Of a stretch of 64,000 nucleotides of DNA, positions 17,704 through 57,607 are shown piece by piece. The stretch lies in assembly GCA_003116975.1 (NCBI GenBank), contig BGKB01000214.1, positions 27,769-91,768 on the forward strand, read 5' to 3'. Source of the DNA: Aurantiochytrium sp. KH105. Its lineage: Eukaryota > Sar > Bigyra > Thraustochytrida > Thraustochytriidae. Both the position numbers and the translations under genes were made by a program. How positions within the stretch are numbered: position 1 is the first letter of the stretch; each line of letters opens with the position of its first letter. The notes under the pieces are model-generated. The model ran no database searches and was not told where the DNA came from. It worked only from the letters and a program-made list of their open reading frames with translations.

Positions 17704-20361
17704 TTAGGCAATGGAAAGGGCGAGCTGGCTTCCGCTCGTGCCGTCAGCATCCCTGTCATGGCTGTCCCTGCCGGTGTTGTCGGTGCTGGCCTCATCGTCA
17801 CCATCGTCACCATCCTCTTCGTTGTCCGTAACGTTGCCAGAGTCTTCAGTCGCCACAGATGCTTCTACGATCGTTTGCACAAAGGAGCTCGGCTCCTCAT
17901 CGTCATCATCGTCGGGTGCATCGACAGGCGCGCTCCCGCTACCACTGCTTGCGTCTTCGTCTGCTTCGTGCAAGATGGATTCCGGAAAGAGTTGCGTCTG
18001 CACGTCAGACTCGAGATGGCCCGAATGAAAGCAAACCTGAACAGACGCGTCGCGTCGGTTGAAGCCTTCGAGACTCGATGGATAATGACGCAGTTCGTAC
18101 AGAGGGGGGCTTGCTCCGGACTGCACCTCGGAGCGGACCAAATCCGTGGCGGAGGAACGCTGAGGCTTGATGCGAGACGAGGGACCGATTGCCTTTGCCC
18201 GATGATGCTGCTGAGAGGTTGCATGCTGCTGCGAAAAGGAGTTGAGAGAGTTGGCGCGGTTTGTGTTGTTGTACATGGCCACGAACTTTGGCACATATAT
18301 GACCAGAGTCAGTAGCAGATTGTTGAAAAAGATGACCAGCGTCATCACCATGAAGCGCGCGAGCGAATTCATTTTGGGGAAAATGAAGAGAATAAGGAAT
18401 CCAAGGCAGTACAGCTGCACTTGCGAGACCAAACTGATGACGATATGCGTGCTTTCCTGAAACTCGGACGGCGTATTGCGCACCATGAACGAGAAGACGG
18501 CCCCCACAATAAAGAGCGCAAAGGTGTAGGTGAAAAGGATGGCCATGAAGATGGTCTCCCGCTCCGAGGTACACTGCCCGTAGGTTATAGTAGGGTTGTT
18601 GAACCTGTCCTCCGACTGCACCGCGCGCTCCCACGTAAGCGGGTCGACAGCTGTCCACACGGTGAGAATGAGAACGTCCACGGCGACAACAACGCCTAAT
18701 GCTGTATATAGGTGCATGTTGGTAATGTGAATTCTGCGGAGGGCCTTGTTGTGAAATATACGATAAATGCGGTACAACTTGGCAGTAAGCGCCCCAAACG
18801 TGAGCACGGTGCCAATACTCCAGAACCAAAAAACAGCCATGCAGGAAAAGTTTTGAAACTCTTGGCTAAAGCCATCCACATCCTCGATGCCAACGAAAAA
18901 GAGACTGCACGAGCTTATTGCGACGCCCATGAGAAAGCTGATGAGTATGGTCGGCTGCGCGCGGGAAAGGATACGCGTCTTGCGCTTCAACCACGTAAAG
19001 ACAATGAGCCCCAGACTCCAAAGAATGAGCAGGACGGCCAGCGCTACGGATGCCCCATTCGCGCCAGCTGTGATGAAATTTGCCTCCAGATGGACGTCCA
19101 CGTCCGGTGGCAGCGTGAGGTTCGCGGAGGTCTCAAAGGCCCAACCGTCGCTGCCGAAATAATACGCAGCCGGCACCGCCGCAATGCTGCTACCGATACT
19201 GAAACGCTCCATCACAAAGTTCGAGGAATCAACGTTGCGAGTGCCCGTTTCTGCGTCGATGCGCACGTTGCCCGAAACGCCGGCAAACTCATTATCCACA
19301 ATGCTCTGCCAGAGCGCAGTCCCGGCCTCAACTTTGCTTTTCCAGTCGGCCTGCCGGACCGATGAGGAATTGAGTATTGAGGAGCAAACGGTACGGCTTG
19401 CGTCGTACGCGAATGGAATGTAGCCATGCATGCCGTCGAGGGTTTCATTGAAGAAGGCGGCATCCACGAGTGAGGCGTTGGCGCTCGCCAGTTTTTCGTT
19501 GAAGAACTCCAGCAAGGTCGCATTCTCTGCCAGCTTGGTCCAGCGCGCCTCCATGTCCTTGTATGCCTGACCTTCGTTGTACCCAGTGGCCTGGATGCGC
19601 ATGACCTTGCTCTCCACGAATGCGCCCCAGTACTCGGGGTCTTCCGCGACCAAGGTCTCGAGTCCGTCGATGGTGACGGCATCGCTTCCGATGAAAACTT
19701 GCTCGTCTGAGGCCTTGTGGTCAAAGATTTCTTTGAGCGACTCTGAAAAGGCGACCGTAATAACAATATTGAGACCCAGGCCCTTGATGTAGTCCATTGC
19801 AAACTTGATTGAGGTATCAGATCCCTGCTGGAAACTGGTTGCGAAAACGTTGATATCGAGGCTAGTGCATGCATCATCGAGCGCGTCGCGGTAAGCCGTT
19901 CCGTAGTCGTCGTCAGTGAAAACAAGAGCCACGTTGCCGACGCCTTTCTTGTTGAGCATGGCGCAGAGGGCGATGGCTGTCTCTGCGTCTGATGGCAGCA
20001 CGCGTGCAAAGAGCGAGTCTGGGCTGAGGTCGCGAGACGTGGCGCTAAAGGAGATCGTCGGGACGCCACGCACGCCGGCCAGCGTGGAGAGCGGCACGGC
20101 AACGGCCGAAAGCGAGGGGCCCACGATGGCATCGATGCCCCCCTCATCATCGAGCTCCACTTTGAGGAATTTGTCGATGGCGTCTCCAGGATTACTCCCC
20201 GTATCCCTCAGGAGAATGTTCACCCCGTCGCCGTCCGGGCCGCAGTGCTCAAAGAGGCCCAGAAGACTGCTCACCACGAGCGCCCGCCAGTAGTCTTCCG
20301 CCTCTTCGCCGCCCTCGAGACTCAACCTCGAAAAGAGAGCCACCGTCTTCGACGCCGCCAT
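17704..20361 (-). CDS. GABA-B-like class C G-protein-coupled receptor
   Basis: The 885-residue protein has an N-terminal periplasmic-binding-protein type I (ANF-receptor/Venus-flytrap) domain at about 1-425. Typical landmarks are DAIVGPSLSAVAVPLSTLAG, GVPTISFSATSRDLS, VALVFTDDDYGTAYRDALDD and FIGSDAVT. A seven-helix class C membrane domain follows from about 433 (ASVALAVLLILWSLGLIVF) to about 690, including FNNPTITYGQCTSERE in the extracellular loop. The tail (690-885) is Ser-rich, then acidic, and probably cytoplasmic. Such receptors sense amino acids or other small molecules in protists; the ligand here is unknown. The chain starts directly with the binding domain and shows no signal peptide, so an upstream exon may be missing or the N-terminus is atypical. 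Confidence 0.92.
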   Translation of the reverse strand: MAASKTVALFSRLSLEGGEEAEDYWRALVVSSLLGLFEHCGPDGDGVNILLRDTGSNPGDAIDKFLKVELDDEGGIDAIVGPSLSAVAVPLSTLAGVRGVPTISFSATSRDLSPDSLFARVLPSDAETAIALCAMLNKKGVGNVALVFTDDDYGTAYRDALDDACTSLDINVFATSFQQGSDTSIKFAMDYIKGLGLNIVITVAFSESLKEIFDHKASDEQVFIGSDAVTIDGLETLVAEDPEYWGAFVESKVMRIQATGYNEGQAYKDMEARWTKLAENATLLEFFNEKLASANASLVDAAFFNETLDGMHGYIPFAYDASRTVCSSILNSSSVRQADWKSKVEAGTALWQSIVDNEFAGVSGNVRIDAETGTRNVDSSNFVMERFSIGSSIAAVPAAYYFGSDGWAFETSANLTLPPDVDVHLEANFITAGANGASVALAVLLILWSLGLIVFTWLKRKTRILSRAQPTILISFLMGVAISSCSLFFVGIEDVDGFSQEFQNFSCMAVFWFWSIGTVLTFGALTAKLYRIYRIFHNKALRRIHITNMHLYTALGVVVAVDVLILTVWTAVDPLTWERAVQSEDRFNNPTITYGQCTSERETIFMAILFTYTFALFIVGAVFSFMVRNTPSEFQESTHIVISLVSQVQLYCLGFLILFIFPKMNSLARFMVMTLVIFFNNLLLTLVIYVPKFVAMYNNTNRANSLNSFSQQHATSQQHHRAKAIGPSSRIKPQRSSATDLVRSEVQSGASPPLYELRHYPSSLEGFNRRDASVQVCFHSGHLESDVQTQLFPESILHEADEDASSGSGSAPVDAPDDDDDEEPSSFVQTIVEASVATEDSGNVTDNEEDGDDGDDEASTDNTGRDSHDRDADGTSGSQLALSIA

Positions 20362-21139
20362 GGTGCTTGCCGCCGCTCGCTCCTCCCCTCCCCGGGCCCC
20401 TGTGCTCGCCCCGCCCGGCTCCGCGGCCCCGCCGCGCAGCCGGCTTCGCGCGCGCGAGCCCGCCGCCCCGCACGCGCGCCGACGCGGTTCGCCGCCGCCC
20501 GGGCCTGGCCGGCGCTCTGGCGGCCTTCCCGCTCCCGGCCTGCGTCTCCTGCCCGCCTGCCTGCGTCTCCTGCCTGCCTGCCCGCGCCGCGCCCGCGCTC
20601 GCCCGCGCCCGCGCGCGCGCCTGTCTGCGCCGCGCCGCGCCCTCCGGCTCGCGACCGGGGCCTGGCTGGACCCTCCCTGCCTGCCTCTTCCTTTCGCGCT
20701 CTGCCGCGGGGGTGAAGGCGAGTCTTTGTCCGCTGCGCCGAGGCGAGGCGAGGCGAGGCGAGCCTGGGCCCCTTCCCTGACTGTGAGCAGTGTTTGGGTG
20801 TTTGGCTGGGTGTTTATTTGTTTGTTTGTGCGCGGCCTGCGTGTTTACGGCGTGCCTGGCCGGCCGGCCCTTCTCCTTCTTGGCGCGCGAGCCGCGGCGG
20901 TTCAAACGTGCCCGCGCCTTGGTCTCCGCGTCCTCGCGACGGCGGCTGCCTGCCGGGCCGGCGAGGCCGCTCCGCTGAGCAGCGAACGCGCGATGCGAGC
21001 TGCTGCCTCGTTTCGGATGGGCGGACGGATGGAATGTTTGAACCTGGATGGTTGGATGGGTGGAGGAATGGATGGATGATGATGATGCCCTGCGCTGCGC
21101 TCGCTCCAAGTCCGGGCTCCGGCTCGGCCGTGCTGCCCG

Positions 21140-27102: not shown

Positions 27103-29172
27103 GTGAGCCGCGAGCAGACCACTTCAAATTCGTTTCTGCAGCAGGAACTCAGCGGCCAGACTACTACCATGTCAATCGTGCCGACGAAGCACGCGAGCTT
27201 GCGTGAGAGTCCGCGCAATCTCACGCGCTCATCCGCGGTCGCGGGTAGGGATGGAGGCATTTGCAACGAGCCCGCAATCGATGGAGACGCTCACATCGAC
27301 GACCTTTGCCGCAACGGCGACGAGGGTCACAAGAGCGACAAATCCATCGACAACGACGACAACGACGACAACGACGACAACGACGACAACAATGTCGGGA
27401 ACAATGACGGCAACAACAATGACAAAAACGACGACATCGACTTCGACAACGAGGACGACCTCAGTAACGACATCATCTGCTACCGTGGCATCAGCGTCGC
27501 GGCACTTCAAAAGATCTGGCAAGATGTTCTCCACGAAATCCTCGCGCCTGGCATTCAGCTGCACGTCCTCCAAAGAAATGTAAAGGCAGTCGCAAAAGAT
27601 CTGAAGGAAGGGGCTACCACGAGTAAAGTCAATGCCGAGAGATTCGTAGTCGTAGAGAAGGGCAAGTGGGAAGGGCAAGTAGGAAAATTTGATGGTAATG
27701 GTCGCGTTAGGCCCGGCTGGCAAGCCAAAGCCCAAGCCAAAGCCCAAGCCAAAGCCCGAAAAGACTGGACCGTCGAGGACGTCTGTGCCAATGTTGTCCT
27801 GTCCCCCGAAAACTCGCAAAAACCGGGCTTCTACCTTGACGTCCTCCGCGAGGAAAGCAACGACAAAGCGTGCGTCGGTCCTCCCTTTCGCGGCGCTTTC
27901 ATCAGCCAAGCGCGCAAGTGCAGCTTTGGAGAGCTTGTGGAGTCCATCGTCGCACATTATTTAAGACAAGGTCGTGACCTGACGCGCACATACGTTTGGC
28001 TTGACCTCTTCTCTGCCAACCAGCCCAAGCTCACTGCCAAGGAGTGCGATCTTGTGGACGGTGGCAAAGCGCAGTACGAGGAACTGCTCAAGAACGGCCT
28101 TCACGTTGCCATCGAGCGCTTCGACGAGCGCCTCATCTTCTTTGACAAGTGGGAAAAACCGTCGCCCCTCGAGCGCATGTGGTGCGTGTGGGAGATCTAC
28201 GGCGCCATCAAGTGTGGCAAAAGTTTCCAGCCCATTTTCGCTGCTGGCGAGGATGAACGCTTTGTCCAGCTATTGGAAGATGAAACGCCGAGAGCCATTA
28301 CTAAAGCTTTTGCGGTGATAGACTTGGCAAATGCAGAGTGCTTCTGGCCAAAGGATCGAGACATGATTGACGAGGCAGTGAAGAGCATTGACGGCGGGTA
28401 TTCGGCGCTCAACGCTGCAGTTCTCGTAGAAATTCGCCAGTGGCTCGTGCAAACATCGTATAGAATCGTCGATGCGCGAAAGGTTGCCGAGGGTTTGACT
28501 GTCAAGGTTGCCTTTTTAATGGTTCATGTTGCATGGCTGCTTCACGACCAAGGCCAGTACAGCGCAGCGCTTACGCTGCACCAGGAAGTTTTCGAGATCA
28601 GGAAGGTAAAGCTCGGGCCCAAGCACCTTGACACGGCGTTTGCGATGGGCGGCATTGCCATTGTGCTCTTTTCCCAGGGCAAATACGATGCCGCACTTGA
28701 TCTGTTGCAGGAAGTCCTCAAGATTAGAAAGGAAAAGCTTGGGCTCAAACACGAGCTCGTGGCCGCAGCGCGATATTGGATGTCCTTTACATTCTCTGGC
28801 ATCGGCCGTTACGTGGAGGCTCTCGAAGCTGCGGATGACGCCTTGGAGATACTTCGACATATCTTTCCATCAGATGACATGGACCCTCGCTTTGGCTCTG
28901 CATGGCTTGCCAAAGGCCAAGCATTGTTGGGTTTCGGAAAGCCCGCTCACGCAGAGGCTGTAATCGCGCTCGAAACGTCCGTGGAGATTCGATCGACGCG
29001 ACTGGGCCCGGAGCATGATTCTACCGCAGAATCACTTTACTGGCTTGCGTTGGCGACGCAGGACGCTGGCATGGCTCAGCGGGCACTCGACATTCAATGC
29101 CAGAAACTCGGTGATACTCACCCATTGACGGTGAAATCGCAGGAGCAAGTCCGAGTCTTGACTGCGAAATAA
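27103..29172 (+). CDS. TIR-like domain protein with C-terminal TPR repeats
   Basis: The protein has 689 residues. After a disordered N-terminus with an Asp/Asn run (DNDDNDDNDDNDDNN, about residues 84-98) and an Ala-Lys-Gln repeat (AKAQAKAQAKAR), a globular domain spans about 255-400. It shows GPPFRGAFISQARKCSFGEL, TYVWLDLFSANQP and LERMWCVWEIYGA. That pattern (an F-S-H/Q-A start, a W-x-D-L-F-S-x-N-Q strand, and R-x-W-C-x-W-E) is the TIR-fold-like module often fused to TPRs in algae and other protists. From about 470 to 680 come kinesin-light-chain-type TPRs (ALTLHQEVFEIRKVKLGPKH, ALDLLQEVLKIRKEKLGLKH, and later degenerate units). Such architectures suggest a signalling or self/non-self recognition scaffold; activity is not assigned. 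It lies between tRNA-Gly genes on the same strand. The domain naming is from pattern memory. Confidence 0.72.
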   Translation: MSREQTTSNSFLQQELSGQTTTMSIVPTKHASLRESPRNLTRSSAVAGRDGGICNEPAIDGDAHIDDLCRNGDEGHKSDKSIDNDDNDDNDDNDDNNVGNNDGNNNDKNDDIDFDNEDDLSNDIICYRGISVAALQKIWQDVLHEILAPGIQLHVLQRNVKAVAKDLKEGATTSKVNAERFVVVEKGKWEGQVGKFDGNGRVRPGWQAKAQAKAQAKARKDWTVEDVCANVVLSPENSQKPGFYLDVLREESNDKACVGPPFRGAFISQARKCSFGELVESIVAHYLRQGRDLTRTYVWLDLFSANQPKLTAKECDLVDGGKAQYEELLKNGLHVAIERFDERLIFFDKWEKPSPLERMWCVWEIYGAIKCGKSFQPIFAAGEDERFVQLLEDETPRAITKAFAVIDLANAECFWPKDRDMIDEAVKSIDGGYSALNAAVLVEIRQWLVQTSYRIVDARKVAEGLTVKVAFLMVHVAWLLHDQGQYSAALTLHQEVFEIRKVKLGPKHLDTAFAMGGIAIVLFSQGKYDAALDLLQEVLKIRKEKLGLKHELVAAARYWMSFTFSGIGRYVEALEAADDALEILRHIFPSDDMDPRFGSAWLAKGQALLGFGKPAHAEAVIALETSVEIRSTRLGPEHDSTAESLYWLALATQDAGMAQRALDIQCQKLGDTHPLTVKSQEQVRVLTAK

Positions 29173-49876: not shown

Positions 49877-51470
49877 GAGCAACCTGGTCAGTGGTCTGGC
49901 CGGCGAGCAGGCCAAACTCGGAGATTCGTTCGGCTTTGAGGCAGAATTTGGGCATTCGGGATCAAGGCAGACTTGAACGGCAAGCAGGCTTCAGAGACTT
50001 GCCCGGCCCACCCGTTTCTCTTAGATCTGTCGTCACCCTCTTAAAGTAAGTTTTCGCTGAGCAGCAATACCGACACGTGACGAGTCATTTGTTGCTCGTT
50101 CGACCAGTATCGACCAGGTCATTCGTCGCATACCCTCTTATTCGTCATGTCAGATCATGTTCAATCTCGAGCTTGAGTCATAGCGCAGAGGACTCTCGCG
50201 TCTAACCTACAAATCCCCAAGCGGTTATTTTTAGATTTAGAGTTTCGAAGGCCCAAACCTGCCCCAAAGCCGAACGAACTCCCGAACTTGGAATTTCATC
50301 CGTCTCGGTACAGGCACACATCAGAAAATGTCACCGCTGTCTCTCTCCCCCGGAGAACGAACAGCCCGCAGAAGAAACACCGCAATTGATGTTGCATCTT
50401 CCTTCTACTTTGTGCTTGAAGGAACGCAGAAAACGAATGCCCAGTTGGACGCTGATGTTCTTGTCTGCACGACAATTGCTCCCCCTCCGACATATCTTCC
50501 TTCAGCCCCGCAGGGTTATCGACTCTGATCCAGGTTTTTTTCTTTCCTTTTTGTGAAAGCCGTTGACCACAGAAAACCAAGGAGAGACGTACTAGGCAGC
50601 CCGGATGCGGTTGTTGATGAGCCAGCAAGCTAATGGCTAAAGGGCAACCCCGAATCAGTGTCGGCAAACGAGGGAGGCGGTTTGCGAGGTCCTTGTCAGT
50701 GGTGGTTCACGTCAAAGCTTTGCTTTGAAGTGTCATCGCTCCCCAGAGCCGTTGGCGTGACGATGGGCCAAAAAATCTCAGCGCCCCCCAAGGACCAAGT
50801 ACACTACGCCTTTGTCGGAGGCTCCCACGAATTTGGTAGGCGTAGCCTGCTGTGAGCTAAGGTGGCTTTAAAAAAACGGTCCCGCTGGTGTGGGGCGGAG
50901 CGAGTTGGAGCACGGTACAACCTTATTTGGAGAGGGGGGGTGTCACAACCTACGCCGGATCTCTTGCGCAAGCGCAACACATACGTTGCATGTTAAAGCT
51001 GAAGAGGGCAGAATGGCGCCAAGCATGCGGCTGCGCCTTACAAGAGGTCCACCCGTTTCGCTTTTGCTCCAGATCCGGCTCGCAGAGCCAGCCACCAAAC
51101 TTTTCCTTCATTCTCTCAGTTGGTAAGAACCTTGTCTTCGACCGAGCGCCGTCACTTCGAAAATGACGAGTCGACCAATGTGATGTGTATCGTCGGTTTT
51201 GCTGCATGTTTTTGAAACAGTATGTCAAAGGAATACAAATCAAAAATTGCTCGTGCTTCGTCGATGGCGGCGCCTCGGTAAACCGCAAATCACCGTCGAC
51301 GAGCAACAACCCGCCTCGACTGACATCGTTGCAACTCAGGAGTGGAAGACCAAGCTGGACAAGCTCTTTCCGAGGGCGGGGGGAGGGTGAGGGAAGGAAA
51401 GATGGGCAAAGGACGAGCTCTCGAGATTGGGGAAGTTCACGCTGCCGTGCGTCCAAACAGACCCTGTCGC
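49739..51470. other. 1.7-kb spacer upstream of the PstS-GPCR gene
   Basis: Contains a (GGCT)n run at about 49842-49876 just after CSE1. No gene is supported: a 65-codon frame ending MGQKISAPPKDQVHYAFVGG and onward (50658-50855) is noted but has no family. The open frame of the receptor extends upstream to 51342 without coding signals. Confidence 0.45.
49842..49876. repeat. GGCT tetranucleotide repeat
   Basis: About eight GGCT units downstream of CSE1, one of several CTGG/CAGC/GCCT tracts found in this window's spacers. Confidence 0.85.
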
Positions 51471-54400
51471 ATGCTTCGACTCGATATCAGCAACCTTTCG
51501 TACATCTTCATGCTTTGCGTAGCCTTGAACCCAAAGGGTATTATTGCAGGCCCTGTATATGCAAACGAAGAGGCCGCTGCAGAGGCATGCGAAGCATTCA
51601 CAGAAGCAGATGCAAATTCTCTTGGCAGCTCCGGCGAAGTCCTCTTACAAGTCGCTGGAGCGACGTTCCCGGAGCGTCTCTACGAATCGGCAATGTTTGC
51701 CTATGGTTTTACGGCCAGCGACGTGCAAATCTCATACACTGGAACGAGTAGCAGCAAGGGATTGTGCCGCATCAAGGAGTATTGCAAAGAGTGTGGACAC
51801 CCCTTTGAGGTTGACTTTGACGGGACAAGCAGTGGCGACGACCGCCAGCCTTCCGTGATTGACCTTGCTGGGAGCGATGCAGTCATGACGTGGGACTCAT
51901 ACAACGAATACAGCGACCTGGAAATGTACCCGTCCGTGGCTGGTGCGGTCGTCCCCATTTACAACTTGGAAAATGTCCCAGATCTCGTCTTAAGCACTGA
52001 AGTTCTGAGTCGCATTTTTCGACAATGTGATTATCCCGCAACTGATGGTTGTGAGCCAGAGTCGATCGCCTATTGGAATCATAGCGACATCTTGGATCTT
52101 AATCCTGGTCGTGAAGACGCGCTGCACGAGGCGTCGCAGCAGCATGGAAAAATCAAGGTCATGGTTCGAGCTGACGGTTCGGGGACGACGGAGATCTTTC
52201 GCAGTGCACTCTCTTCGTTTGAAGAGGCCTTTAAAATCCAAGTCGGTGTCTCCTCCAAGTCGACGTGGAACGCAGTGAATCTCGAGAAGAAAGACACAAC
52301 TATGGGCCTTGTTTCATCGGTGCTTTTGACACCTGGGTCCGTCTCGTACGCGGTACTCGCAGATGCTGACGAGATGAACGCTCAGAAAGCAGGTATTTCC
52401 AAAGATGGGACCATTGTGCATGCGTCATCAGAATCTGTCAACTTTGCTGTCATGGAAAAGGGTCTTGATTTTGGCAATAATGGTGACAACTCCACAAGCA
52501 TGACTGCCGATATTTTTGGTGCAAAAGGCCGTCTCGCCTGGCCTGTCGTGGGCTACACGTACTTTGTGCTGCGCAAGGACACCTTGCGAGAGGGCGCAAC
52601 CTGCGCCAATCGCGAGGCCACGTTCGACTTTCTGACGTGGTTTTACACCGACACCGTCGTTGCTAACTTGGCGGAAACACTTGGTTTTGCAAGCCTTCCT
52701 TCAGAGGTCAGTGCCGCCGTTCTCGAACGAATTCGCACCAGTTTCAAGTGCAATGGCGAGCTCGTCTATGAAGCACCTCGCAAAGTGAACGTGCACTTTG
52801 ATATCAACCCAGTGCTTGATCAGGTGATGGCCCTCGTCGAGCCTGCATACAAGTCTATACGCGACACGCTCACGTTCAACGTATCGATCGCGTCTGACGC
52901 GCCTTCGTGGACCGATGTGGAGATTGCTCAGCCTGCGATGCTGATTGACTTTGCCGACAGGATCACGGACATGCTCTCGCGCAATAGTACCATGGCCATC
53001 GAACTTGGGCTGCGTCGTCTGCGCTTTACGGGCGTGGCTCACGCGATTGTTTTCAATCTTTGTGGAGCGATTAGCCAGAATCAGTGCTCTTACTCGACCG
53101 TTGCCGTCTCAATGGACGTGAAAACGTTGACGGCCATCTTGGATGGCAGTATATCTCGCTGGGACGCCTCGGGCATTATCGCCGTGGACAAAGAGACGAC
53201 CGCGACGCTCCCCAATGAGACGATTCGACTCTTTCGTTCGGACGACGCTTCCAGCCTCGATTGGATGGACCGCTTCAGCGCGCAGCTCAGCGCGGCGAGC
53301 GGCGAGAGTAACTTTACGTTCTCAGCATCAGCCACGACCGTAAACTCGCCGGAAGCTCTCCTCGCAACAGTGTACAGCACTCCATTCTCAATGGCTGTGA
53401 TTCCTCTAGTCTCTCAGCTCGGCTCACTCGCTTCGATGATCTCCATCCAAACGGACGACGGAGATACACTCGCGATTTCCGAGTCTTCGATTCTGGAATA
53501 CATTGAAGACATCGAGATTTCGTCATCGGTTCCTTCACGCAACGTTTCTACGTCGTGCTGGCCCTTTGTCGAAGTTCTGGACGCGGTCTTTCCCACAAAC
53601 TTCCTCAACGAGGCTTGCAAGGACGATAACAACGAAGACGACAGCGTCTTCAGCGAAGGCGAAGAGTTTGCGACATTTTTACACTGGTTTCTGGACGTTG
53701 ATACGTTGCAGCGTCCGCTCGCCTCGGCTGAAATGGCATACGCACCTCAGCGCTCTTCCTCCGCTCTCGCAGACGTCGAGCTGGCAGCAACGGCAGTAAC
53801 CTGCAACGGACAGTCCGTGATGCTGCCACAGCACGACATTGGCGTCATGTCGGATGCGTCCAAGATTGTCATTACTATTGTAGTGCTTCTCTTCGAGGCA
53901 AGCATCCTTGGGCTGCTTGTTTGGGTCGTGAGAAAGAGACGTGCGGCGATCATCCACGTTTCCTCGCCTGTCTTTCTCATCCAGGTCTTGGTCGGCGCAT
54001 TCATCTCAGTGCACACAGCCATTCTTGTGACCAAGGACGACAGCGTCCTGTTTGGCGAGAACGCGGATCTGTACAATGAGATCGACGTGTACGCAAGTCT
54101 GGATATCAATTGCATGCTCATTCCTATTTTTTTCTTTGCGGGGTTTGGTATCATCGTCGTACCGTTGCTGCTCAAGACGTGGCGAATCAACAAGCTCTTC
54201 AACAACAAGCGATTGAAGCGTATCTCCATCTCCAATCGACAGCTTTTTCAATACGAGCTTCTGTTTCTCGCGTGTGTGCTCGTTACTTTACTAGCTTGGC
54301 TCATTGTCAATCCACTCCGTTTCAAGAGAACAATCATTGAAACGGATCCAGTCACGGGTGCGCCAGTCCAGTCTGTGGGAATCTGCACGTGCGAAAATCC

Positions 54401-55043
54401 TATACCGTTCCTGATTCCTCTCATTTGCTTTATTGTCGTCTGCTTGGTTGGGGGAAACTACCTGGCGTACAAGGGGCGAAATGTTCCAACAAAGTTTTCA
54501 GAAGGTCGCTTTATCGCCATGGCGCTCGTCAGCTACTTGGAGCTCTTCGTCCTCGGCATTCCAATCTTCATGGTGACCATCAACACTCCTAGTCTCGATG
54601 GACTCGTCAAAGCTCTCGTGATCATCCTCTGCACGCTCGATGCGTTGGGCCTCATTTTTGGCCCCAAGGTTTACGGTTACCTCTTTTCTGAAGAAGCCAA
54701 GCACCGTCTCTTCTCGACGAACAAGACGTCCGTCAACACGTCAGGCTACCACCAGACGGCGCACGGTCTCACCTCCAAAGGCACGAATTCGGTCGCGTTG
54801 AATTCGGCCTTGGGCCTAGAACTAGATGATGCTCAGGCTGCAGTAAAAATCTCAACATGTAGAAACAAGATAACTGAAGTGTGTGTTCCTCAGGCTGGCA
54901 AAAGCTGGATCGATTGCAGATCTTTTTATTTTCAAGAAAAAAAGAAAAAGATTTTTCCCTCCGCTCCAGCGACGGATCGATCGCACGACTCCCTTGGGGG
55001 GCGCGAGACCAAATCGCAATCGAGCTTAGCCCGCGGAATTTGA
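51471..55043 (+). CDS. PstS-type phosphate-binding domain fused to a class C GPCR
   Basis: I start at 51471, where the signal peptide begins (MLRLDISNLSYIFMLCVALN, ending near GPVYA), giving 1190 residues. Residues about 55-460 are a complete PstS-like (PBP type II) domain with AGATFPERL (T65, F66), TGTSSSKG (90-97), AGSDAVMT (D136) and RADGSGTTEIF (R233, S237, G238, T239). These correspond to the phosphate ligands of bacterial PstS (T10, F11, S38, D56, R135, S139, G140, T141). A second, degenerate PstS-like segment lies at about 540-780 (VAVSMDVKTLTAILDGSISR, then RLFRSDDASSLDW), with the SGT motif lost. Residues about 798-1075 are a seven-helix class C membrane domain. Inference: a cell-surface phosphate receptor. 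The last 45 residues look like non-coding sequence, so the true stop may be earlier. Confidence 0.9.
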   Translation: MLRLDISNLSYIFMLCVALNPKGIIAGPVYANEEAAAEACEAFTEADANSLGSSGEVLLQVAGATFPERLYESAMFAYGFTASDVQISYTGTSSSKGLCRIKEYCKECGHPFEVDFDGTSSGDDRQPSVIDLAGSDAVMTWDSYNEYSDLEMYPSVAGAVVPIYNLENVPDLVLSTEVLSRIFRQCDYPATDGCEPESIAYWNHSDILDLNPGREDALHEASQQHGKIKVMVRADGSGTTEIFRSALSSFEEAFKIQVGVSSKSTWNAVNLEKKDTTMGLVSSVLLTPGSVSYAVLADADEMNAQKAGISKDGTIVHASSESVNFAVMEKGLDFGNNGDNSTSMTADIFGAKGRLAWPVVGYTYFVLRKDTLREGATCANREATFDFLTWFYTDTVVANLAETLGFASLPSEVSAAVLERIRTSFKCNGELVYEAPRKVNVHFDINPVLDQVMALVEPAYKSIRDTLTFNVSIASDAPSWTDVEIAQPAMLIDFADRITDMLSRNSTMAIELGLRRLRFTGVAHAIVFNLCGAISQNQCSYSTVAVSMDVKTLTAILDGSISRWDASGIIAVDKETTATLPNETIRLFRSDDASSLDWMDRFSAQLSAASGESNFTFSASATTVNSPEALLATVYSTPFSMAVIPLVSQLGSLASMISIQTDDGDTLAISESSILEYIEDIEISSSVPSRNVSTSCWPFVEVLDAVFPTNFLNEACKDDNNEDDSVFSEGEEFATFLHWFLDVDTLQRPLASAEMAYAPQRSSSALADVELAATAVTCNGQSVMLPQHDIGVMSDASKIVITIVVLLFEASILGLLVWVVRKRRAAIIHVSSPVFLIQVLVGAFISVHTAILVTKDDSVLFGENADLYNEIDVYASLDINCMLIPIFFFAGFGIIVVPLLLKTWRINKLFNNKRLKRISISNRQLFQYELLFLACVLVTLLAWLIVNPLRFKRTIIETDPVTGAPVQSVGICTCENPIPFLIPLICFIVVCLVGGNYLAYKGRNVPTKFSEGRFIAMALVSYLELFVLGIPIFMVTINTPSLDGLVKALVIILCTLDALGLIFGPKVYGYLFSEEAKHRLFSTNKTSVNTSGYHQTAHGLTSKGTNSVALNSALGLELDDAQAAVKISTCRNKITEVCVPQAGKSWIDCRSFYFQEKKKKIFPSAPATDRSHDSLGGRETKSQSSLARGI

Positions 55044-55060: not shown

Positions 55061-57607
55061 ATGACAGCGACGGAGGCGCGCAGACGCGCGTGCTCCCAGA
55101 CATGGGCGACTGCCTTCGTCTTGGCGCTCTCGCTAGCGTGCCTCGCAGCCGTGGCTTGGGGCAGAGCGCCGAAAACTGCCATGGACCCCATCAAGCTGGG
55201 CTTCACCTTGGACCTCGACGAGGGCAGCTTCACGCTTGGCTTTGATATGCAGGACGGAAAGCACGGCGACCCTGCAATTTTTACAAGTTTGCCTGTGAGT
55301 ACGACTGTAGACGGTCAGACGCTGACGGCTGGCGTTGATCTAAAACTCAAAGACGTCAAGACCTGCAACGGCACCGACAAGTTGGGACACTTTCGAGAGA
55401 CGCGCTTCATTTGGCAGCGCAAGGGAAACGCCGACGATACATGGACCTTTGAAACGGCCGTGTTGCGCTACGAGGAAAGCGAAACCTTGGTGTTCGTGCA
55501 AAATTGGCCTCAGGGCGCCAATGATACTTCTGTGCATAGCAGCAATCATGCCGCCTCTCACTGGCCCAGCTTCGCCATTGCGCCTTCGTATTACGACAAA
55601 GTCCGACATGACCGTCCACTTGAGTATGTTGACTATCTCACGCAGCTGAACATTGGTCTCTTGTCCTTCAATGATCGATTTATGCAGCGGAGCGCGGCTG
55701 ATGTGCTCGGATACGCAACTCACGAGTTCGGGGGCGAGCGCGCTGGCCCAATGATCTTTTTTGATCGGCACATGAGCTGGAATCTTGCAATTGGCCCTCT
55801 CGCGGGCTCGATGGCAACGACTGTGCAAGGTCTCGATATTCGCGAGGGCGAGATCTTTGCAAGTGGTCTTCTTGGAAGTATCGACCACGTGCCTCCTGGT
55901 TTTGAGCTCCGCACCATTTTGACCATCTCCGGCGCGGGTGTCACAGTCGCTTGCAAGCAGTTGGGCGAAGCTATGCTTGCGTACCACGACATTGGTGACA
56001 TGCGCCAAGAAGCCATCGCGCGCGACATATCTCTCTCTTATCTGGGCTACATTACAGACAACGGCGCTTACTACTACTACAAGACAGAAAACGGAGCAAC
56101 CTACGAGGACACCATGCTTCAAGTCTATGAGGACGCCAAGAGCAAGGACATTCCATACCGCTACATCCAGCTTGACTCTTGGTGGTACAAACGCGGCAAA
56201 GGCGGCGGCGTCGAGCGTTGGGAGGCTCGCGACGACGTCTTCCCGCATGGCCTGGCCGAGTTTTCCAAACGCACAGATTGGCCACTCTTTTTGCACAACC
56301 GGTACTGGTCGCCCGACAATGTTTACAATGTCGACAACGGGGGCAAGTATCACTTTGAGGTCGAGAACTCCTACTCTGTACCTCTGGAGCAAGAGTTCTG
56401 GGACGATCTCATGCGCAATATGAGTGCAAAGGGCATGTTTGTCTACGAGCAGGACTGGCTTTATAACGAGTTCGAGGGTATGCCATCGCATCTCATGCGC
56501 GAGCCGACGCTTGGGGCTTCGTGGCTAGCACAAATGGCGCGCGCTGCGCTTGCTTACAACGTCTCTATCCAATACTGCATGCCATTGCCACGCATGGTGC
56601 TCCAAAGTATCGAGCACCCGGCATTGACTCAAGTTCGTGCTGGAGATGACTACCACCCTGGAAACACTCAGAATTGCCGCTTTCCGTATTGTCTGTACTA
56701 CATTCAGACAACTTCTTTGCTGTTATGGTCTCTCGACCTCGCGCCGGCAAAAGACGTCTTTTGGACGTCTCAAGTGCAGCCCGGAAACCCGTATGGCGAG
56801 GCGGAGGAGCCCCATGCTGAGATGCTCGCTGCTGTTGCAGTCTACAGCGCTGGACCCGTGCAAGTCGGAGACAAGGTGGGACATGCCGACAAGCGAGTCA
56901 TCGACCTCATGTGCGCCCCTGACGGGCGTCTCTTGCAGCCCTCTCGCCCGCTTACGGCCATTGACCAATGTTTTATAGACGCGGCTTTTGGTGGCGCCCA
57001 GCCCAATGTTAACATTGGAACGACGTTGTCAACCAAGGGTCATGAGATCTGTGCTATCTCTAGCACGCATACGTATGTGGATGGCCACAAATGGGTTCAT
57101 GTCGTCTCGATCCTCTCCCAGATGGAGACGGTTGTCACTCCCGCCATGCTGCCCGTGGACGCGGACCCGAGCCAAAAGTACCTCGCCTACACAGGATACG
57201 GGGCGCCTCGCAACTTCACCCAGCTCGGCGATTTTGACGGCACGCATCCCATGCGCGTGCCCAAGAGCGGAGCAAGTGATTTTCGCGTTTTTCATGCCGC
57301 GCCCTGGCTTGGTGACAATGACAAGGGAACCCAGATTGCCATTCTTGGCGAAGCAGCAAAGCTTGTGCCAGTCTCGGAGCATCGCTTTGCGGCCATCAAA
57401 TGGGAGTCAGGTGGTGTACGTCTTGGACTGCGAGGTGTCCCCGGGGAATCGGTGGTGGTCACAATTGCGCGCCGCAATCTCTCGCGAGCCACCGCGAGCC
57501 AAGCGCCACCGCCAGTTCTAGACCATATTGAAGTCAAGTTTGCAGAAGACTATCATAGTCTTCTGGTTCCCTTGATGGCCGAAAGCTTTGCGCAAGCCAT
57601 TCTTTGA
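55061..57607 (+). CDS. Secreted clan-D (GH36/raffinose-synthase-like) glycoside hydrolase
   Basis: The start is taken at 55061 (AACAAGATGACAGCG), giving 848 residues with a clear signal peptide (ATAFVLALSLACLAAVAWG, cleavage near residue 32). A beta-rich N-terminal region is followed by a TIM-barrel-like core with LSYLGYITDNGAYYYYKTE (about 323-341), YIQLDSWWYKRG (368-379), VYEQDWLYNEF with candidate nucleophile Asp465, and VRAGDDYHPG with candidate acid/base at Asp529/530. The W-x-D and R-x-x-D-D pattern is that of alpha-galactosidase and raffinose synthase families. A C-terminal beta domain ends the chain. It probably trims an extracellular glycan; substrate is not known. The frame is open upstream to 54881, overlapping the receptor, and only 17 bases separate the receptor's stop from this ATG. 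Confidence 0.72.
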   Translation: MTATEARRRACSQTWATAFVLALSLACLAAVAWGRAPKTAMDPIKLGFTLDLDEGSFTLGFDMQDGKHGDPAIFTSLPVSTTVDGQTLTAGVDLKLKDVKTCNGTDKLGHFRETRFIWQRKGNADDTWTFETAVLRYEESETLVFVQNWPQGANDTSVHSSNHAASHWPSFAIAPSYYDKVRHDRPLEYVDYLTQLNIGLLSFNDRFMQRSAADVLGYATHEFGGERAGPMIFFDRHMSWNLAIGPLAGSMATTVQGLDIREGEIFASGLLGSIDHVPPGFELRTILTISGAGVTVACKQLGEAMLAYHDIGDMRQEAIARDISLSYLGYITDNGAYYYYKTENGATYEDTMLQVYEDAKSKDIPYRYIQLDSWWYKRGKGGGVERWEARDDVFPHGLAEFSKRTDWPLFLHNRYWSPDNVYNVDNGGKYHFEVENSYSVPLEQEFWDDLMRNMSAKGMFVYEQDWLYNEFEGMPSHLMREPTLGASWLAQMARAALAYNVSIQYCMPLPRMVLQSIEHPALTQVRAGDDYHPGNTQNCRFPYCLYYIQTTSLLLWSLDLAPAKDVFWTSQVQPGNPYGEAEEPHAEMLAAVAVYSAGPVQVGDKVGHADKRVIDLMCAPDGRLLQPSRPLTAIDQCFIDAAFGGAQPNVNIGTTLSTKGHEICAISSTHTYVDGHKWVHVVSILSQMETVVTPAMLPVDADPSQKYLAYTGYGAPRNFTQLGDFDGTHPMRVPKSGASDFRVFHAAPWLGDNDKGTQIAILGEAAKLVPVSEHRFAAIKWESGGVRLGLRGVPGESVVVTIARRNLSRATASQAPPPVLDHIEVKFAEDYHSLLVPLMAESFAQAIL

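Follow-up and report, generated by a model that had tools for sequence, protein, structure and literature searches.

A candidate class C G-protein-coupled receptor for phosphate built on a PstS-family domain in the thraustochytrid Aurantiochytrium

Class C G-protein-coupled receptors (GPCRs) usually, though not universally, bear an ANF_receptor ectodomain, and surface sensing of external phosphate is, to our knowledge, poorly understood in most eukaryotes. The N-termini of these receptors have been derived from periplasmic binding proteins (PMC8687355, from whose accessible text the word phosphate is absent). Krishnan 2012 (PMC3251606) places the PBP_like_2 domain (PF12849) on one class C receptor of the chytrid Spizellomyces, SPPG_06488; further fungal class C receptors listed there carry OpuAC, SBP_bac_1 or LysR_substrate domains. 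The main text of that paper does not contain the word phosphate. The accessible portions of two further papers present Dictyostelium GrlD as a putative polyphosphate receptor (PMC10445921) and mammalian CaSR as a phosphate sensor acting via an anion site (PMC6795806). An amoebozoan case may exist, PBP_like_2 being named for amoebozoan GPCRs in the abbreviation list, and there alone within the accessible text, of PMC10445921; the words periplasmic, PBP and Pst are absent from the main text of PMC12716839. We found no paper in the open-licence literature that joins PstS with a class C GPCR or the 7tm_3 domain. Here we describe a gene that encodes such a combination in a stretch of 64,000 nucleotides (the window) from Aurantiochytrium sp. 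KH105, corresponding to positions 27,769 to 91,768 of the forward strand of contig BGKB01000214.1.

The receptor gene (51471..55043; this and all its parts lie on the forward strand of the window) is a single frame of 1190 codons plus stop. From the N- to the C-terminus its product consists of a signal-like start, a domain of the PstS family (D1, residues 57-433), a further domain that is PstS-like but degenerate (D2, residues 434-790) and a class C seven-transmembrane (7TM) domain (residues 794-1066). The original prediction of a PstS-type domain and a class C 7TM in one uninterrupted frame is borne out, as PBP_like_2 and 7tm_3 both score above their cut-offs, and at the level of sequence this architecture is certain. 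Its best explanation, which we regard as reasonably probable on the sequence evidence, is that the protein is a class C GPCR for inorganic phosphate.

D1 (51639..52769), which is presumed to bind phosphate, matches PBP_like_2 in Pfam at residues 57-394 (E 4.9e-14; 53.2 bits against a cut-off of 27) and the NCBIfam PstS model TIGR00975 in three stretches (E 1.5e-45; 155.6 bits), with TIGR00975 scores of 123.9-162.7 bits across the eight loci of the genome that encode this receptor. Searched by sequence against the PDB, the ectodomain finds PstS 2z22 as its best match (E 1.6e-18) and also 1ixh (E about 1e-18). The strong PDB matches of a profile built from four D1s are PstS (best 1ixh, E 1.4e-31); DING proteins, of which one is filed as a putative alkaline phosphatase, appear in its weak tail (E above 2e-4). 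A structural match to some other ligand family had been named beforehand as grounds for refutation: by sequence, the best PDB matches of the ectodomain are PstS, and no non-phosphate family occurs among the strong D1 matches in NCBIfam and PDB. The phosphate pocket is likewise intact, as had been claimed. At the eight phosphate-contacting positions, which we take to be those of the E. coli PstS structures, a computed alignment pairs T65 and F66 (51663..51668) with T10 and F11 of E. coli PstS (numbered on the mature protein), S94 (51750..51752) with S38, D136 (51876..51878) with D56, R233 (52167..52169) with R135, and S237, G238 and T239 (52179..52187) with S139, G140 and T141, and every pair is identical. 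All eight ligands are identical to those of E. coli in each of the eight D1 copies of the genome. Only 61 of 316 columns are invariant across these copies and E. coli; the corresponding hypergeometric probability of 1.3e-6 points beyond chance but is a rough figure, given that the copies are related and that pocket columns are no random sample. The eight ligands are also identical in all 79 bacterial PstS compared among the matches listed, T10 and F11 being favoured by construction as the patterns used for collection included GATFP.

As to the extent of the ectodomain, the predicted PstS domain stands, but it ends near residue 433, and the remainder up to residue 790 is filled by D2 (52770..53840). 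Of the eight ligand positions, which in D2 rest on a weak alignment to E. coli PstS, two are retained in four copies including that of the window, one in two copies and none in the other two. That D2 is an unrelated domain is ruled out by several comparisons: a D2 profile recovers from the PDB 17 sequences up to E 10, all of them phosphate-binding proteins (best 1.3e-6); a profile of 35 bacterial PstS, run against a set of 16 sequences, matches all eight D2s (E from 1.7e-10 up to 1.7e-5); and hhalign pairs D1 with D2 at 95.8% (E 8e-9) over 318 columns. Searching the genome with the PstS profile gives 16 matches, namely the eight D1s, six D2s and two in a Kelch protein, and the D2 of copy L007 by itself has no NCBIfam match. 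An origin of D2 as sister of D1 through internal duplication is unsupported: a tree in which both are constrained together is not rejected (p 0.213), which does not show sisterhood, the D2 branches being long and apart, and the D2 model matches bacterial PstS but none of the eight D1s. The D2s of the four genes distinguished below form one clade (99/99).

The affinities of D1 were examined on a tree of 35 bacterial PstS, E. coli PstS, a Kelch-PstS protein and four D1s, one per gene. The bacterial set derives from an uneven sample, a scan with at least 592 matching stretches and at least 544 encoding relatives, from which the best 80 were kept; 79 of these had a usable frame (L134 was dropped), and clustering at 75% left 35. 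The D1s form a single clade (100/100) beside four Chloroflexota PstS (97/89), with Anaerolineae nearest among the matches listed, and a fifth Chloroflexota sequence, L068, falls just outside this group (97/58). In all four nearest Chloroflexota the downstream gene is pstC, matched above cut-off. Identity to the nearest Chloroflexota among the matches listed is 34-36% for the window D1 and 33-37% for that of L007; these values, together with the single clade of the four D1s, rule out recent bacterial contamination. A Chloroflexota-type origin of D1 is further supported by a shared C-terminal C(N/E/D/Q)G motif, which is present in 9 of the 79 bacterial sequences (among the matches listed) and, after clustering, in 5 of 35, exactly the five of the Chloroflexota clade neighbouring D1, as well as in six of eight D1s. 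Its presence in all eight D2s suggests that D2 is likewise of Chloroflexota type, the tree being unable to place D2 on account of its long branches. Most simply, then, one fusion that drew on a Chloroflexota-type PstS was followed by duplication to four genes. No virus-borne relative was found among 41 pattern matches in one scan with D1-derived patterns.

The class C seven-helix domain (53850..54668) is supported by Pfam (7tm_3, E 2e-32; 113.3 bits against a cut-off of 33.5), by the PDB, where its best sequence match is GABA-B subunit 2 (E 8e-16), and by a tree of 26 rows from the genome, on which the 7TMs of the four genes group as a single clade (99/97). The sole further Pfam match is to DUF3483, inside the 7TM and below its cut-off. 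The first hydrophobic helix peaks about 20 residues past the terminal TCNG motif of D2. As the prediction had it, the ectodomain is not of the usual ANF type, there being no Pfam match to the type I ANF_receptor family up to E 1. The cysteine-rich NCD3G linker, which GABA-B also lacks, has no match in the receptor protein, and none of its four matches in the genome is above cut-off. Neither absence was taken to rule out membership of class C.

In the genome searched (76 Mb in 367 contigs) eight full-length copies, the window's included, lie on eight contigs, and the seven others are 95, 83, 81, 36, 36, 31 and 31% identical to the window copy. We infer that they represent four genes in two haplotypes, because contigs C214 and C59 both bear, in the same order, the second class C receptor of the window (17707-20844, reverse strand), which has an ANF_receptor ectodomain and a 7tm_3 domain. 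PBP_like_2 and 7tm_3 occur together in one copy of each of the four genes, the 7tm_3 cut-off being passed also in L003, L005 and L007. A gene-model or assembly artefact, in which two genes are read as one, might be suspected from in-frame stops at L002 and L004, though these fall behind the 7TM, beyond the end of the open frame. It is contradicted by the same order D1-D2-7TM in one open frame at all eight loci, on eight contigs and down to 31% identity, which rules out a chimeric contig or two separate genes and leaves this explanation with a vanishingly small probability.

All three domains are kept under purifying selection. The ratios of non-synonymous to synonymous substitution (Ka/Ks; Nei-Gojobori method, own script) for D1, D2 and 7TM, in that order, are 0.19, 0.14 and 0.06 for L001 (the window copy) with L002, 0.16, 0.21 and 0.12 for L003 with L004, 0.10, 0.25 and 0.12 for L001 with L003, 0.09, 0.13 and 0.02 for L005 with L006, and 0.06, 0.13 and 0.14 for L007 with L008. 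The N-termini and tails, with few codons, give 0 to 1.7; synonymous sites are saturated between L001 and L005 and between L005 and L007, so that the ratio carries no weight for these pairs. Since each of the three domains groups as a single clade and shows purifying selection, the fusion is real and maintained. The distant paralogs L001 and L005 are 46% identical in D1, 37% in the 7TM and 20% in D2. This divergence of D2 could mean diverging ligands, and so bears on the possibility that phosphate in D1 is a structural element or co-ligand, with D2, or the space between it and D1, holding the real signal, in the manner of anions on CaSR, where phosphate acts as a non-competitive antagonist through the anion site (accessible text of PMC6795806). 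Yet D1 is the best kept domain between these paralogs, and no D2 copy retains the ligand set (0-2 of 8 positions), with only 28 of 320 columns invariant among the eight; we consider the co-ligand alternative unlikely, if worth keeping in mind.

The genome contains 69 matches to 7tm_3, counting both haplotypes. Of 12 other receptors, ten were scanned (L024 and L034 were left out): five have ANF_receptor, two sCache_2, one of these just at the cut-off, and three no ectodomain family, most loci reaching only 1500 bases beside the 7TM so that their ectodomains are cut. Six further receptors comprise two with ANF and one each with Peripla_BP_6, Phosphonate-bd, OpuAC and a PT repeat only. All ten OpuAC matches of the genome sit in eight frames that also match 7tm_3, as do both Phosphonate-bd matches in theirs, a pairing made by coordinates and frame length, with two of the ten frames translated and scanned. 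The OpuAC (betaine-type) receptors are L153 (1-2901, reverse strand) and seven more loci on C34, C258 and C204; the Phosphonate-bd (PhnD family) ectodomain, E 5e-26, belongs to L152 (1-2460, reverse strand) on C70, for which a sequence search of the PDB at E 0.01 gives no match, and another copy lies on C181. At least 18 of the 69 class C matches thus bear a transporter-type type II trap (PBP_like_2, OpuAC or Phosphonate-bd), and outside receptors these three, the only type II families sought, occur in a Kelch-PstS pair alone. This pair, L055 (1045-3591, reverse strand) and L056, consists of proteins of about 850 amino acids with Kelch repeats, a PstS-family domain and, judged by eye, a C-terminal hydrophobic stretch; that of L055 retains five of the eight phosphate ligands and sits on a long branch of the tree. 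Among G-alpha domains 27 of 46 matches are above cut-off, and there are 20 matches to SPX domains, which are known from phosphate signalling, some being pieces of one gene. A PfaA-like polyunsaturated fatty acid synthase, consistent with a labyrinthulomycete, was also matched below cut-off (930 bits against 1010), as it was in 11 of 14 control genomes.

The ten PBP_like_2 matches of the genome are the eight receptors and the two Kelch-PstS proteins, with no stand-alone PstS among them. As bacterial PstS serves uptake, the protein might instead capture phosphate for uptake or be a transporter-linked sensor, the 7TM being mainly an anchor; an anchor would not need a full 7tm_3 domain held at Ka/Ks 0.02-0.14 in five pairs, and we judge this improbable.

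Certain points weigh against a receptor for inorganic phosphate. The two neighbour genes examined encode a CSE1 exportin and a protein without a Pfam family, neither of them tied to phosphate. By Ka/Ks the tightest constraint falls on the 7TM in three of the five close pairs and on D1 in only two. Phosphate might sit in the pocket as a fixed ion, or the pocket might bind another oxyanion. Finally, the score of D1 does not reach the curated equivalog cut-off of TIGR00975 (205 bits), and we therefore class D1 as a PstS-family domain and not as a PstS orthologue. The last point leaves some room for a ligand other than phosphate, be it a phosphonate, a phosphate ester or a different oxyanion. So does the Phosphonate-bd receptor of this genome, since it suggests that sensing may extend to further phosphorus ligands. 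The identity of all eight phosphate ligands and the lack of any non-phosphate family among the strong matches count against such a ligand, to which we assign a low probability, slightly below that of the co-ligand alternative.

If the protein is indeed a phosphate receptor, the conserved pocket and the biology of PstS suggest that phosphate would close the two lobes of the membrane-distal D1. D2, which has lost its pocket and is nonetheless kept by selection, may act as a relay or dimer contact, since it sits between D1 and the membrane; in GABA-B, too, a non-binding trap is part of the receptor machine. From D2 the change would reach the class C 7TM and, through it, heterotrimeric G proteins, for which G-alpha genes are present. 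The affinity of E. coli PstS for phosphate is about micromolar or tighter, near sea-water levels, and such a receptor could therefore tell scarcity from plenty.

An in-frame ATG also lies upstream of the start of the receptor gene, at 51402. The hydrophobic N-terminus of approximately residues 1-30 (51471..51560) is likely a signal peptide, as judged by eye, its hydropathy being a modest 1.51 at residues 1-19; of the four copies examined among the eight, the value exceeds 1.5 in L001, L003 and L007 and not in L005, whose N-terminus is signal-like by eye only. The presumed cytoplasmic tail (residues 1073-1111; 54687..54803) ends at the stop used in the other haplotype: L002 terminates with TAG after residue 1111, where the window allele has TCG (54804-54806) and continues for 79 codons as a probable stop-loss extension (54804..55043). 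Because of this difference the final 79 codons are probably not native. L003 and L004 stop near the end point of L002; the TCG/TAG difference reflects either haplotype variation or an error in one assembly. The stop codon of the receptor frame lies 17 bases before the ATG of the next frame (55061-57607, forward strand; 848 amino acids), which has no Pfam family at E 0.001.

More broadly, this protist may read nutrients through class C receptors that employ traps of bacterial transporters, with four PstS-pocket phosphate receptor genes carrying a pseudo-PstS relay, one phosphonate-type and several betaine-type receptors, a picture whose chances we put at about even. If true, it would provide the first known case of a eukaryotic receptor that detects phosphate through a bacterial PstS pocket, and would point to the capture of transporter domains as a general source of GPCR sensors. 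It would add to class C evolution a second layer in which transporter solute-binding proteins serve as ligand readers beside the type I trap, and would illustrate one trap domain decaying into a likely relay. Because it shares its pocket with the best-studied phosphate-binding protein, the receptor is a directly testable candidate: which binding assay to use, which pocket residues to change and which ligand to expect is clear beforehand.

Comparison with described systems delimits what is new. The fusion of PstS with a class C receptor had been put forward with the remark that no PstS case was known, a claim of novelty that must be cut back somewhat since PBP_like_2 on SPPG_06488 is already in Krishnan 2012. 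As far as our searches reach, what is new is that the phosphate pocket is intact, that a second PstS has decayed, that the genes form a family and that the OpuAC and Phosphonate-bd domains of this genome, too, sit on class C receptors. Compared by description, SPPG_06488 resembles the window receptor in having PF12849 outside and 7tm_3 in one protein, but it is a single chytrid sequence, and the accessible text says nothing of a PstS identity or pocket, of tandem domains or of a role for phosphate. GrlD and CaSR are, from the accessible parts of their papers, class C receptors linked to polyphosphate or phosphate, but no PstS pocket is named there and CaSR responds via its anion site. The bacterial PstS of PstSCAB systems (E. 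coli, Chloroflexota) belong to the same family as D1 and have all eight ligands, the nearest relatives lying beside pstC; D1 differs in being fused to a degenerate domain and a 7TM. BvgS-type bacterial sensor kinases also place tandem type II traps before a membrane signalling part, which in them is a single membrane helix and a kinase, and their traps are not PstS. GABA-B is like the window receptor in its 7TM, subunit 2 being the best PDB match, and in the absence of NCD3G; it uses type I traps on two chains, whereas the window receptor has two type II traps on one chain.

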